Below, piece by piece: positions 36,067 through 41,738 of a DNA stretch of 64,000 nt. The stretch is from an uncultured Pelagibacteraceae bacterium (lineage in GTDB: Bacteria; Pseudomonadota; Alphaproteobacteria; Pelagibacterales; Pelagibacteraceae), in the NCBI GenBank assembly GCA_902567945.1, contig CACFOC010000002.1, positions 37,436 to 101,435 of the forward strand, read 5' to 3'. The notes beneath the pieces were generated by a model. It made no database searches. It saw only the letters and a list, made by a program, of their open reading frames with translations, and was not told the origin of the DNA. Positions within the stretch are counted from its first letter, which is position 1. Each line of letters starts with the position of its first letter. The position numbers and the translations under genes were made by a program.

Positions 36067-37164
36067 TTAATTTTTTTTGGTAGGTTCTGTTTTCTCTGCT
36101 ACAGGGTTTCCTTCTATCTTTTTAGCAATTAATCCAGCTTTAGTTCTAATTGCCATTTCAATTTCTGCTGCTACTTTAGGGTTTTTTTCAAGAAAAATTT
36201 TGGTATTTTCCCTGCCTTGACCAATTTTTTCACCTTTGTAAGCATACCAAGCTCCTGCTTTTTCGACTATATTGGCCTTAGCTCCTAAATCAACAAGCTC
36301 ACCTACTTTGCTAATACCTTTTCCATACATTAAATCAAATTCAACTACTTTAAATGGTGGTGAAACTTTATTTTTAACTACTTTGACCCTTGTTGAATTT
36401 CCAATAATTTGGTCTTTGTCTTTAATTGCTCCAATTCTTCTTATATCCATTCTGACAGACGAATAGAATTTTAAAGCATTTCCTCCTGATGTAGTTTCAG
36501 GATTGCCAAACATAACACCAATTTTCATTCTAATTTGATTTATAAATATAACCATAGTGTTGGTATTTGCGATTGAACTAGTTAACTTTCTAAGAGCTTG
36601 ACTCATCAACCTAGATTGTAATCCTACATGATGATCGCCCATTTCGCCTTCAAGTTCAGCTCTTGGAGTTAATGCTGCTACTGAATCTATAACCAAAACT
36701 GAGATCGATCCTGATCTAATCAAAGTATCTGCTATTTCCAAAGCCTGTTCACCTGTATCTGGTTGAGATATTAAAAGCTCTTCAGTTTTAACACCCAATT
36801 TTTTTGCATAAACCGGATCTAAAGCATGTTCGGCGTCAACAAATCCACATATTCCACCAGTTTTTTGTGACTCAGCTATCACTTGCAAGGCTAAAGTTGT
36901 CTTTCCTGAGGATTCTGGACCATAAATTTCTACAACTCTTCCTTTTGGTAAACCACCAATCCCGAGGGCAAGATCTAAACTTAAAGATCCTGTTGATATA
37001 GCCTCGATGTTCATAGCGGCTTTTTGGCCAAGCTTCATCACCGAGCCTTTTCCAAAATTTTCATCAATTTGACTGATTGCTGCTTCTAAAGCCTTATTTT
37101 TCTCTTTGTTTTCTGCTTCTTGATTTTTACCTGATTTTACTATTTTTAAGTTATTTTTAGTCAT
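36067..37164 (-). CDS. recA: RecA recombinase
   Basis: Strand-exchange protein and SOS co-protease. The Walker A motif [10 protein letters not shown] and the core ([36 protein letters not shown]) are intact; 365 aa. An SOS-like box lies about 50 bp upstream of its start (see 37214-37228), which suggests LexA control. Confidence 0.98.
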
Positions 37165-37213
37165 AATTTACCTTTTTTTTTTAAAATTTAGTTAACGAAT
37201 CACATCTTTAAAT

Positions 37214-37228
37214 GTACACATTTTGTTC
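37214..37228 (-). promoter_or_regulatory. SOS (LexA) box of recA, one mismatch
   Basis: The plus strand reads GTAC-N7-GTTC, one base off the alphaproteobacterial LexA site GTTC-N7-GTTC, 50-64 bp upstream of the recA start. Its place and the perfect copy before umuD make chance less likely. Confidence 0.55.
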
Positions 37229-37291
37229 TTTTTATCAATAGTTAATTAAATCCAATAAATTCAATGTTTTTTTAAAAGAATAGAAGAATTT

Positions 37292-38575
37292 TTACTTTAT
37301 CAAGTTTAGTTGTCTAGCTGTAAGTCTTCCTATTGCTGCTAATAAATCAAATTGAGATATCAAAAAATTTCTTTCCGCGCTTGCTAAATCGATTCTAGAA
37401 TTTAATAAAATTGTACGCGATTGAATAACTTCTAAAGTAGTTCTGCTGTTTCCTGATTCATACTCTAAAGTTATTCCTTCGTTTGCAATTTCTGCTGCTT
37501 TTACTTGTGACCTTATCGATTCTAATACACTTCTAGAAGTTATATAGTTAGACCAAGCATTAGCTATATTAGTTTCGTTTTGTCTCTTTTGATCTTGAAA
37601 TAAAAGCTCTTTTTGGTTTCTAAGCTCTTTTGTTTTTCTTAAACCATATAAATTGCTACCCCCAGCAAATAAAGGCCATGTTGCTGTTGCGGTTACCGTT
37701 TGTTGTGTTCTGTCATTCACTGTCGCACTAATATCATCCTGTTCCGCTACCTTGTAAGACAAGGTTGCTGATGGTGAAAGTTCTGATCTTGCAATAACTA
37801 CATCTAATTTGGACTGCTTATATTCTAGCTTTGCTATTTGCAAGTCAGGATTCTCTGAATTAGATATACTGTAAGCTGCAGCTAAACTTTCGGGTAAATT
37901 CAAATTAATTTCTTTTACTTCCTTAATATTTTTTATGTCTTTTTTTCCAGTTATTTTAATAAAGTTTGCTCTACTAGTTACTAAATCATTTTGAGCTGTA
38001 ATTAACTGAGCATTAGCGCCAGCAAAAGAAGATTCTGACTGTGCCAAGTCTGTTAAATTGATTTCACCTTTTTCCAGCCTATTTTGATCAGTTTCAACCT
38101 GTCTCTCCAGTAAATCAACGTTCATTAAATTAATATTTACTTTTTTTCTGTTTAACAATAAATCAGTGTGTGCTTTTGCTGCTTCTAATAAAATTTCTTG
38201 CTCAATTTTTTTAAGTTTAAATTCTGCTAAAGTTTGTCCATATTGTTTTTTTTTTAAATTTGCAACTCCACTAAATCCTTGAAAAACTTTTTGTTCCACA
38301 GTTACAGATTGTTCAGATGGTCGGAAATTTGTATCACTTCCAGGTACTTTATTATCTTGCTCTCCTACATAGCCTGAAATTGTAACGCTTGGCAAAAACT
38401 CACTGATGGCTCCTCTTCTTTCTTCTTTAGATGCTCTCATGCTTGCTCTTTCTGCATTTAATTTAGGATTGTTTAAATAGGCTGAGTTTAAAGAATCAAG
38501 TAAGGTATCCGCTTTTAAGAGATTAATCTTTAAAGCTAATATTAAAACTAATAAAATTTTAAATAAAAACTTCAT
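37292..38575 (-). CDS. tolC: TolC-family outer membrane efflux protein
   Basis: A 427-aa outer-membrane channel with a signal peptide (MKFLFKILLVLILALKINLLKA) and the duplicated OEP fold: long heptad-rich helices (QVETDQNRLEKGEINLTDLAQSE and AAEIANEGITLEYESGNSRTTLEV) between beta-strand regions. It partners inner-membrane exporters for type I secretion or drug efflux; none is adjacent. It starts 7 bp after the kinase gene. Confidence 0.9.
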   Translation of the reverse strand: MKFLFKILLVLILALKINLLKADTLLDSLNSAYLNNPKLNAERASMRASKEERRGAISEFLPSVTISGYVGEQDNKVPGSDTNFRPSEQSVTVEQKVFQGFSGVANLKKKQYGQTLAEFKLKKIEQEILLEAAKAHTDLLLNRKKVNINLMNVDLLERQVETDQNRLEKGEINLTDLAQSESSFAGANAQLITAQNDLVTSRANFIKITGKKDIKNIKEVKEINLNLPESLAAAYSISNSENPDLQIAKLEYKQSKLDVVIARSELSPSATLSYKVAEQDDISATVNDRTQQTVTATATWPLFAGGSNLYGLRKTKELRNQKELLFQDQKRQNETNIANAWSNYITSRSVLESIRSQVKAAEIANEGITLEYESGNSRTTLEVIQSRTILLNSRIDLASAERNFLISQFDLLAAIGRLTARQLNLIK

Positions 38576-38582
38576 TTAACTA

Positions 38583-39503
38583 CTACCTAAACAATATTTT
38601 TTTAACTTCATGATTTTTTTTCAATAACATAACTACTGATGCAGATTTACTTAAATCTTTTAGCATTTGCAAAGTAATTCTTTGGTAAAACATAATAAAA
38701 CGCTTTATTTGATTATAGGTCATTATTTTTTTATTTAAATGCGACCTTTTTTTTAATTTTGTTTCTTGTAATAATCTCCACTTAAAGACCATATCAAAAC
38801 TAGGCACTTTCAGAAAAATTAAATGATCTATCATGGAAAAAACTTTTTTATATTCTTTTTTAAGTTTTTCATTTACCTGCTTTCTCCATATCAACCTTCT
38901 ATCCTCTTTTTTTTCAAGAATGTTTATTGGTTTTTTTATTAAAGAATTAGATTGAGGTTTTGCTCCAACGCACCACCCTTCTAATATAACTATTTCTGGT
39001 TTTTTGCTTATTTTTGACCAATATTTATTTTTCATACGATCATCTGTAGATTTATCAAATTTTGGTATTTTGAATTCTTTAAATTTATTTTTTTTCATAT
39101 TATTAAAAAAAAATTTTACTAACCTGATGTCATGAGTTCCAGGAACACCTCTCGTTTTGAATAAGGGATGAATTTGCTTTGACATTATATTTCTTTCGTT
39201 CAAAGTTTTATAAAAGTGATCAATTGAAGCAACGCGAACATTTCTTTTAAAAAATTTATTTAAAATAATTTTTAAAATACCTGTTATTGTTGTTTTTCCA
39301 GATCCTTGTCCTCCTGATAAACCTAAAAATAAAGTTTTTCCTTTTTCTTTATATTTTTTTTCGATCCAAAATGAAATTGGTATATAATTTTTCTTAAGAT
39401 TATTTATGTTTGTAATTTTGGATTTGTTAATAATTTTTTCCTTTTTTAAAAATTTTAAATAATCTTTTTTTACCTTTAAAAAACAATCTTCAGCTTCTTT
39501 CAT
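38583..39503 (-). CDS. D-glycerate 3-kinase-like P-loop kinase
   Basis: A 306-aa P-loop protein (GLSGGQGSGKTT, residues about 81-92) with ILEGWCVGAKPQ and VASIDHFYKT, matching the glycerate kinase (GLYK/Tda10) family that phosphorylates glycerate to 3-phosphoglycerate. In an organism living on glycine, serine and one-carbon compounds this would return carbon to the trunk pathways. The start overlaps the Gfa stop (TAATG). Confidence 0.75.
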   Translation of the reverse strand: MKEAEDCFLKVKKDYLKFLKKEKIINKSKITNINNLKKNYIPISFWIEKKYKEKGKTLFLGLSGGQGSGKTTITGILKIILNKFFKRNVRVASIDHFYKTLNERNIMSKQIHPLFKTRGVPGTHDIRLVKFFFNNMKKNKFKEFKIPKFDKSTDDRMKNKYWSKISKKPEIVILEGWCVGAKPQSNSLIKKPINILEKKEDRRLIWRKQVNEKLKKEYKKVFSMIDHLIFLKVPSFDMVFKWRLLQETKLKKRSHLNKKIMTYNQIKRFIMFYQRITLQMLKDLSKSASVVMLLKKNHEVKKILFR

Positions 39504-39871
39504 TACTTTTTATCAAGGGGGTGGTTAACTCCATCATTAACTCCGATGTTTTTATATTCAAAAGGATTCACCCCTTCTATGCATGCAATATTTATCATAT
39601 AAACTTTATCATGATTGCTTCTTGGATTTGTGTGAGTATAAATTCCACACTTTGAGCAAAAATAATGTTCAGCTACTTTTGTGTGATATTGATAAAGAGT
39701 TAAAAGATCTTTTCCCTTAATAATTTTAAAATTCTCAGGGCTAATTGGTGTCATTATGTAACCCTTCCTCTTACAAATTGAACAGTTACATCTATTAAGC
39801 TTTTCAAATCCCTTCTCTTGTAATTTTACTTCAGCCTCTACTCCTCCGCAGTGACATGTTAATTTTTTCAT
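39503..39871 (-). CDS. Gfa/CENP-V family zinc protein, second copy
   Basis: A 122-aa GFA-domain protein with cysteines C6, C8 (TCHCGG), C28, C30, C33 (CNCSIC) and C72, C75 (CSKC). It is clearly paralogous to the one at 15.6 kb: shared blocks are KI-IKG, AEH-FC and CGIYTH. It is coupled to the glycerate-kinase-like gene. It might deal with formaldehyde-glutathione adducts, but many family members have no known reaction. Confidence 0.8.
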   Translation of the reverse strand: MKKLTCHCGGVEAEVKLQEKGFEKLNRCNCSICKRKGYIMTPISPENFKIIKGKDLLTLYQYHTKVAEHYFCSKCGIYTHTNPRSNHDKVYMINIACIEGVNPFEYKNIGVNDGVNHPLDKK

Positions 39872-40057
39872 TTATTTATTTTTAATTTAAATTCTTTAGC
39901 ATGATTTTCATATCGTGGTAATAGTTATCCACATCATAACTAAATCTAGTTTTAATGTTCATGCTTTGATTCAGTTTAGATTCTTTTTTGGACTCAAAAT
40001 ACAACCTAATAGTTACTTTTTCACAGCTTGCTATATTGTGTTTCATATTATAAATTA

Positions 40058-40072
40058 GAACAAAATAAGAAC
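40058..40072 (+). promoter_or_regulatory. SOS (LexA) box of umuDC, perfect match
   Basis: GAAC-AAAATAA-GAAC is an exact match to the alphaproteobacterial LexA consensus GAAC-N7-GAAC. It ends 3 bp before the umuD ATG, so a bound repressor would block transcription at or just after the start site. Such closeness hints at a very short or leaderless transcript. Confidence 0.75.
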
Positions 40073-40075
40073 ATT

Positions 40076-40468
40076 ATGAAAGCACTATTGCCATTTCATT
40101 TAAACAAAGTCGGGGCTGGATTTCCTTCTCCAGCAACAGATTATGTGGAAGACGACATAGATCTTAATGCTCATTTAATAAAAAATATACCATCTACCTT
40201 TATTATCAGAGTCCAAGGTAAATCTATGACTGACGTTGGTATTCATGATGGTGATCTTTTAATAGTAGATAAAAGTTTAAATCCAAAAAATTTTTCTACT
40301 GTAATTGCCAATGTTAATGAAGAGTTGGTTGTAAAAACTTTCATAAAAAAAGAAAATCAATCCTTTTTAACTTCTGGATCAAAAAAAATTAAAGATAAAA
40401 TCAATTTAACTGATAATCCTGAAATTTTTATTTGGGGTGTAGTAACTTACGTAATTCATGCTTTATAG
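40076..40468 (+). CDS. umuD: UmuD-like translesion polymerase subunit / S24 peptidase
   Basis: A 130-aa LexA/UmuD-type self-cleaving protein from the ATG at 40076; the TTG at 40028 in the track would read through the SOS box. Cleavage site A14-G15 (VGAGFPSP), catalytic S50 (GKSMTD) and K87 (VVKTF). After RecA-stimulated cleavage it forms polymerase V with UmuC. It overlaps umuC by 11 bp. Confidence 0.92.
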   Translation: MKALLPFHLNKVGAGFPSPATDYVEDDIDLNAHLIKNIPSTFIIRVQGKSMTDVGIHDGDLLIVDKSLNPKNFSTVIANVNEELVVKTFIKKENQSFLTSGSKKIKDKINLTDNPEIFIWGVVTYVIHAL

Positions 40469-41738
40469 CAAAAATAAAATAGCTTTAGTAGATTGTAACT
40501 CATTCTATGTTTCATGTGAAAGATTATTTAACCCCTCGATAGTTAAAAAACCAGTGGTTGTATTATCGGGTAATGACGGGTGTGTAATTTCTCGATCAAC
40601 AGAAGCTAAGACTTTAGGAATTAAAATGGGAGAACCCTATTTTAAAGTGGAGAGAATAGTAAAAGAAAATGATGTAAAAATTTTTTCAACAAACTTTGCT
40701 TTATATGGAGATATATCAAGAAGAGTTATGAAAACTTTAAAGCAATTTTCGCCACAAATGGAGATTTATTCTATCGATGAAGCTTTTTTAGATTTAACTT
40801 CAGTAAAAAATGAAAATTTACTAGAACATGGTCATGAAATTAGAAAAACTATTTTAAAATGGACTGGTATACCAACTAGCATTGGAATTGCAACAACAAA
40901 AACTTTAAGTAAAGCTGCGAATTATATTGCAAAAAAAGAAAAGTCGGGAGTTATTGATTTAATAAATTCTAAACAAATAGATAAACTTCTTTCAGAAATT
41001 AAAATAAATGATGTTTGGGGCGTAGGACGTCAACTAACAAAATTCTATATCAGAAATGGAATAAATACAGCCTATGATCTTAAAAAAATTCATAACGGAT
41101 GGATAAAAAAAAATACAAATGTTTTTGGGTCACGCACAGCAATGGAGTTAAAAGGATTTTCGTGTATATCTTTAGAGCCTCATGAAGAAAAAAGAAAAAG
41201 TTGTTGTGTATCAAGATCGTTTGGAAGAAAAGTCACAAAACTAGAAGAATTAAAAGAATCTATTACAACACATTGTCTTAATGCTGCAGAAAAAATTAGA
41301 AATGATAATCAAACAGTAAAAAAAATAACTGTCTTTATAAAAACAAGCCCTTTTCAAATAGGAAAAAAATATTACGCAAATTCAAAAGATATAGATTTAC
41401 CAATAAGAACAAATGATAGCATTACCTTAATAAAATACTCTCTAATTATATTAGAAAATATTTATAAAGAAGGATATCAATATCAAAAGACTGGTATAAT
41501 TTTTTCAAAATTAAAAGATGTCAATATTTATAATAAAAATTTGTTTTCAACAATTAATAATGAAGAAAAGAGAACTAAATTAATGAAAGCAATCGACTAC
41601 ACGAATATAAAATATGGACGTCATGCTTTAAGTGTTGCGCAAGCAGGGTTCAAGAAAAAATGGAATACTAGAAGACGCTTCTCATCTAGAATTGATACTG
41701 CATGCTTTGATTTGTTACCTTTTGTCAAAACTTCCTAA
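40458..41738 (+). CDS. umuC: UmuC-like Y-family DNA polymerase
   Basis: A 426-aa error-prone polymerase. The start ALVDCNSFYVSCERLF holds the first metal Asp, and YSIDEAFLD holds the others; the little-finger region and the UmuC-specific C-terminus follow. Coupled to umuD. The last 24 bp overlap the convergent glycosyltransferase gene. Confidence 0.94.
   Translation: MLYSKNKIALVDCNSFYVSCERLFNPSIVKKPVVVLSGNDGCVISRSTEAKTLGIKMGEPYFKVERIVKENDVKIFSTNFALYGDISRRVMKTLKQFSPQMEIYSIDEAFLDLTSVKNENLLEHGHEIRKTILKWTGIPTSIGIATTKTLSKAANYIAKKEKSGVIDLINSKQIDKLLSEIKINDVWGVGRQLTKFYIRNGINTAYDLKKIHNGWIKKNTNVFGSRTAMELKGFSCISLEPHEEKRKSCCVSRSFGRKVTKLEELKESITTHCLNAAEKIRNDNQTVKKITVFIKTSPFQIGKKYYANSKDIDLPIRTNDSITLIKYSLIILENIYKEGYQYQKTGIIFSKLKDVNIYNKNLFSTINNEEKRTKLMKAIDYTNIKYGRHALSVAQAGFKKKWNTRRRFSSRIDTACFDLLPFVKTS

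Follow-up and report, generated by a model that had tools for sequence, protein, structure and literature searches.

SAR11 bacteria are among the most abundant on Earth and have kept few regulators. The LexA operator of Escherichia coli, CTGT-N8-ACAG, differs from the SAR11 box described below. In Caulobacter crescentus, the SOS response operates through a GTTC-N7-GTTC operator and covers 47 genes in 31 transcription units (PMC12700426). For SAR11 itself, two transcriptomic studies of HTCC1062 report that recA, lexA, umuD and umuC are co-induced upon infection by HTVC027P, in experiments performed without lexA or recA mutants (PMC12753301), and that lexA, recA and mucA cluster together in late iron stress (PMC2864753). 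In that infection, nrdA rises 3.1-8.9-fold and nrdB 2.5-5.8-fold, which the authors, in the portion available, discuss as a matter of phage dNTP supply and not of SOS (PMC12753301). In E. coli and Vibrio cholerae, nrdAB goes up after damage but independently of LexA, and a mobility-shift assay for LexA at V. cholerae nrdAB was negative (PMC2500167, PMC5963079).

Here, we consider a window of 64,000 nt, i.e., the whole stretch of DNA that was analysed and to which all coordinates refer, from an uncultured Pelagibacteraceae bacterium (GCA_902567945.1, contig CACFOC010000002.1, positions 37,436 to 101,435). It codes for RecA (365 aa; 36067..37164 on the minus strand, with its ATG at 37164; TIGR02012 552 bits, PF00154 470.6 bits) and, on the plus strand, for UmuD (130 aa; 40076..40468; NF007621 137.9 bits against a cut-off of 110, with an S24 peptidase domain) and UmuC (426 aa; 40458..41738). 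The latter displays the PF00817 (IMS), PF11799 (IMS_C) and PF13438 (DUF4113) domains, all over their cut-offs, and scores 412.5 bits against the NCBIfam model NF002955, slightly below its cut-off of 431. It is also the sole Y-family polymerase gene detected: nine Pelagibacteraceae genomes and three from the sister family each gave a single PF00817 match. The cleavage region of UmuD, GAGFPSPA, places the cleavage site at Ala14-Gly15, and its alignment with UmuD of solved structure (8gmt_B) begins at residue 6; thus, its N-terminal arm up to A14-G15 (window 40076-40120) is about 10 residues shorter than that of E. coli UmuD, which is cleaved at C24-G25. As the sister-family UmuD shows a Cys-Gly after about 12 residues, the short arm is common to the Pelagibacteraceae and the sister family, whereas the residue preceding the glycine is not. 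The distance of about 3 kb between recA and umuDC in the window (36067-41738) recurs in some genera; in loci L016-L030 and most of those up to L060, recA falls outside the fetched flanks of umuDC and the umuD box is still unchanged. The comparisons below make us confident that recA and umuDC belong, together with lexA and nrdAB, to a small SOS regulon with predicted LexA binding over its promoters.

The predicted LexA box of umuDC, GAACAAAATAAGAAC, is a perfect GAAC-N7-GAAC at 40058..40072 (plus strand), separated by 3 nt from the umuD ATG (40076), exactly as the first-pass annotation of this DNA had reported. It is adjoined upstream by a putative -10 element, TATAAA (40049..40054, plus strand), which we recognize by sequence, and a TATAA-type sequence lies beside the box in most relatives. 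Flanking DNA varies among the best 80 umuC loci and the window, yet a perfect box is seen in 80/80 readable promoters, with a gap to the ATG of 0-4 nt and, once, 8 nt. These best umuC relatives are all Pelagibacteraceae; in the sister family, GAACAAAACAAGAAC is found 17 nt upstream of umuD. A separate survey of boxes, spanning up to 11 genera, recovered the umuDC box in all 16 genomes tested. Most of the 80 relatives have an in-frame stop immediately 5' of the umuD ATG and offer no alternative start; hence, the ATG at 40076 is very probably the true start, and an upstream TTG (40028) is for the same reason unlikely to serve as one. The very short umuD leader proposed in the first-pass annotation would fit a TATAAA -10 element just 5' of the box.

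The cognate regulator is encoded elsewhere in the genome, outside the window, which bears out the presence of lexA on which the annotation had made its reading depend: the protein (P0001) matches TIGR00498 with 175.8 bits (cut-off 110.95) and has intact LexA_DNA_bind (PF01726, 58.1 bits) and Peptidase_S24 (PF00717, 109.9 bits) domains. Aligned with LexA of known structure, its GKIAAGTPI, GDSM and MLKRL motifs correspond to a predicted Ala-Gly cleavage site and a Ser/Lys dyad. A perfect box stands 23 nt before the lexA ATG and, in most Pelagibacteraceae, a second operator of the inverted variant form GTAC-N7-GTTC ends 1-3 nt from the ATG; the box survey found a lexA box in 18/18 genomes tested. 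In the complete genome G058, the lexA start (L356/L331) is out of frame with MLTKKQ, reading MLTKKQKIY and then a stop, with an apparent indel in an early A-run; this may reflect either a sequencing error or a genuine shift of the start codon. The earlier proposal that LexA controls recA and a complete umuDC thus draws support from both box conservation and an intact lexA, with the control itself being a prediction.

Beyond these three promoters, a fourth box, which like that of lexA is outside the window, lies in the divergent region between a phosphohexomutase gene and nrdA, which codes for the ribonucleotide reductase large subunit and is followed by the small-subunit gene nrdB. This box is perfect in 27/27 readable loci, 79-93 nt before the nrdA ATG, even as its seven inner bases vary, and it is present in all 17 genomes tested from 11 genera. 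The searchable open-access literature yielded no earlier report of LexA at SAR11 nrdAB. One may argue instead that LexA targets only lexA, recA and umuDC, that the site upstream of nrdA serves the phosphohexomutase gene or another factor, and that nrdAB is induced via NrdR or dATP depletion. The box is indeed common to both genes of the divergent pair and lies on the upstream side of the putative nrdA -35, and NrdR-like boxes were seen by eye farther downstream of it; given these boxes and the LexA-independent damage induction of nrdAB in E. coli and V. cholerae, something other than LexA could account for the rise of nrdAB in SAR11. However, the distance from the box to the nrdA ATG is nearly constant (89-92 nt in 16/17 genomes), as opposed to 54-81 nt to the phosphohexomutase gene; a conserved TTG, belonging to a putative -35 hexamer of nrdA, follows directly 3' of the box; and nrdAB rises in the same infection as the SOS genes (PMC12753301). 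We hence regard this alternative as unlikely, albeit the most serious of those considered. On the preferred reading, with LexA acting at nrdAB, the conserved predicted box would furnish a simple cause for the rise of nrdAB during phage infection.

The predicted LexA box of recA, GAACAAAATGTGTAC, has the form GAAC-N7-GTAC and lies at 37214..37228 (minus strand), 49 nt before the recA ATG. It sits between a putative TTG-type -35, TTGATA (37233..37238, minus strand), and a putative -10, TACATT (37211..37216, minus strand), both called from sequence and 16 nt apart, so that the GTAC half-site, which overlaps the -10, provides its first bases. The form GAAC-N7-GTAC occurs in 30/30 recA-linked promoters, which also keep the TTG of the -35 and the TACAT(T/A) of the -10; seven more Pelagibacteraceae genomes from other genera have the same box (37/37 read in total). 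It extends to the sister family, and GAAC-N7-GTACATT is found at recA in three sampled non-SAR11 alphaproteobacteria (L310, L312, L313). Hence, the single mismatch that the first-pass annotation had noted is present, but it does not mark a weaker copy: it belongs to a strictly conserved variant between the -35 and -10. Being one position off the consensus, this box might be taken for a LexA site that has decayed, binds weakly or does not function, with recA expressed constitutively. This view is very improbable: 29 of the 30 linked promoters agree over the full 15 nt, the half-sites are the same in the three non-SAR11 alphaproteobacteria, the GTAC variant recurs inverted in the second lexA operator, and recA is induced along with lexA in the infection study (PMC12753301). 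As GTAC is seen both in outgroup recA promoters and, inverted, at lexA, it looks to be a genuine half-site variant. A second, perfect GAAC-N7-GAAC box stands 50-53 nt upstream of the proximal recA box in the sister family (L306-L309, L311, L314) and likewise in two of the three outgroup genomes (L310, L312); none of the Pelagibacteraceae recA promoters read has this distal box.

How far do such boxes exceed what AT-rich DNA would throw up by itself? Within the window, the perfect motif is observed once against 0.68 expected, and one-mismatch matches number 28 against a shuffled mean of 30.3; by these counts alone, neither the umuD nor the recA box is above chance, and we accept the boxes as real because of their conservation and not because of their counts. 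The annotation had called for a genome-wide scan, whose outcome is favorable: the 869 kb assembly has only seven perfect copies. Four fall within genes; the other three are intergenic and sit at SOS-type promoters, namely upstream of umuD, upstream of lexA and in the region that separates nrdA from the phosphohexomutase gene. For the extent of the regulon, we compared two complete genomes of different genera, G024 and G030 (the latter read except for its last 11 kb). Exact intergenic GAAC-N7-GAAC or GAAC-N7-GTAC sites in G024 are confined to umuD, recA, lexA and nrdA, whereas G030 has these four together with mraZ and one isolated site. Markov-resampled intergenic DNA gives 0.35-0.43 GAAC-type sites per genome, as against 3-4 observed, and 0.27-0.34 GTAC-type sites, as against 2-3 observed. 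Among 883 ortholog pairs of the two genomes, exact sites are present in both only at umuD, at recA, at lexA and in the region between the divergent nrdA and phosphohexomutase genes; no ortholog pair has a summed mismatch of 1, and going up to a summed mismatch of 2 brings in no other convincing shared promoter, the two-mismatch pairs resembling background. A GAAC-N7-GTAC site upstream of a carbamoyltransferase-like gene in G030 has two mismatches in its G024 counterpart and looks like a chance match. No conserved exact box was found for uvrABC, although published SAR11 data show these genes rising. It is hardly credible that AT-rich DNA has produced these motifs by chance and that no regulator recognizes them, for even if the window holds no more one-mismatch matches than shuffling predicts and one perfect copy there is roughly an even bet, the 80 umuD promoters are perfectly conserved amid varying flanks, the same promoters carry boxes in every genus tested and both complete genomes show the intergenic excess.

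A further box shows a more restricted distribution. Genera g5, g7, g9 and g12 have it in perfect form 85-145 nt upstream of mraZ, and it is absent in the genomes tested from g1, g2, g3, g6, g8, g11 and g13. Its positions are L233:19041-19055 in G030 and L348:1501-1515 in G058, while the boxes of G026, G039, G041, G042, G064 and G065 are known by coordinates only. In both genomes read (G030 and G058), mraZ is followed by ftsZ, which we identified by eye from its GGAGGNA and GGGTGTGAAPV motifs. The G030 box is preceded by TATAAAT, as at umuD, and a TTGACT-type promoter lies further downstream. This points to a possible clade-specific tie of SOS to the division gene cluster through the mraZ box. 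Bacillus subtilis LexA binds a LexA box at the mraZ homolog of gut bacteria in vitro (PMC3998124); the SAR11 genera g5, g7, g9 and g12 resemble those bacteria in having a predicted LexA box before mraZ, but the gut-bacterial box is of the Gram-positive type (PMC3998124) and that of SAR11 of the alphaproteobacterial type.

In terms of distribution, umuC is present in 42 of 49 good-quality relatives, and five of the seven that lack it are, as counted from the table, non-SAR11 outgroups; LexA is, like umuC, near-universal among the relatives. Within the Pelagibacterales, 42 of 44 good-quality genomes carry umuC, and umuDC under LexA is hence the rule in SAR11 and not the notable feature of a streamlined genome that the annotation had taken it to be. 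Given this core status and the already published SOS co-induction in SAR11, the finding as it was noted is an ordinary one. What is new here is the very small conserved regulon, the nrdAB box and the genus-restricted mraZ box, with LexA binding at them being predicted. Viral contigs hold only distant relatives of umuC, with UmuC about 43% identical or less, and gave three N-terminal LexA matches at about 52%, so that we set aside a phage origin for either gene; by these comparisons, umuC appears to be no recent gain from phages. The outgroup alphaproteobacteria G146 and G147 (1.4-1.7 Mb, 99% complete) gave no LexA match and may thus have lost the SOS system altogether.

Briefly, we advance the following mechanism. 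LexA would bind GAAC-N7-GAAC or its GTAC variant at lexA, recA, umuDC and nrdAB and thereby block RNA polymerase: at recA, the box would occupy the spacer between -35 and -10; at umuDC, it would cover the likely transcription start; at lexA, two operators would extend the occupied region to the ATG; and at nrdA, LexA would sit just 5' of the -35. Upon damage or in some phage infections, RecA filaments would set off the self-cleavage of LexA at Ala-Gly, and RecA, UmuD'2C (Pol V, the only Y-family polymerase) and ribonucleotide reductase would then increase together. Such a joint rise of Pol V and ribonucleotide reductase would match lesion bypass with dNTP supply. LexA binding, repression and the LexA-dependence of nrdAB are inferences in this scheme. 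As a broader proposal, we consider it fairly likely that LexA in SAR11 has been pared down to four promoters and rewired directly to nrdAB, coupling bypass to dNTP supply, with an extension in g5, g7, g9 and g12 to an extra promoter of mraZ, which precedes ftsZ in both genomes read, so that SOS would be tied to the division gene cluster.

The DNA-damage switch of these organisms is apparently limited to four promoters in all genera tested, and this limit suggests what a minimal SOS response must contain: (i) a sensor; (ii) a repressor; (iii) one mutagenic polymerase; (iv) a supply of dNTPs. Further, the nrdAB box offers a simple and testable reason for the increase of host nrdAB when pelagiphages infect. 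From the boxes as a set, mutagenesis and phage-response behavior can be predicted in uncultured lineages.

Set against the known systems, the regulon comprises the same genes that are co-induced in the HTCC1062 transcriptomes (recA, lexA, umuD/mucA and umuC), along with nrdAB, which goes up in the infection data (PMC12753301); LexA operators are not described in the accessible portions of those reports (PMC2864753, PMC12753301) and are described here. With Caulobacter, SAR11 shares the direct-repeat operator, LexA, RecA and, by prediction, the autoregulation of lexA and the inclusion of recA in the regulon, but against 31 transcription units there, SAR11 has four promoters conserved between complete genomes (PMC12700426). 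Also unlike Caulobacter, the SAR11 UmuDC is the only Y-family polymerase detected and nrdAB has a conserved box. The likeness to E. coli lies in the Ala/Cys-Gly cleavage region and S24 domain of UmuD, the UmuC with DUF4113 and a umuDC predicted to be controlled by LexA; in contrast, where E. coli nrdAB is LexA-independent (PMC2500167), SAR11 nrdAB comes with a conserved predicted LexA box.
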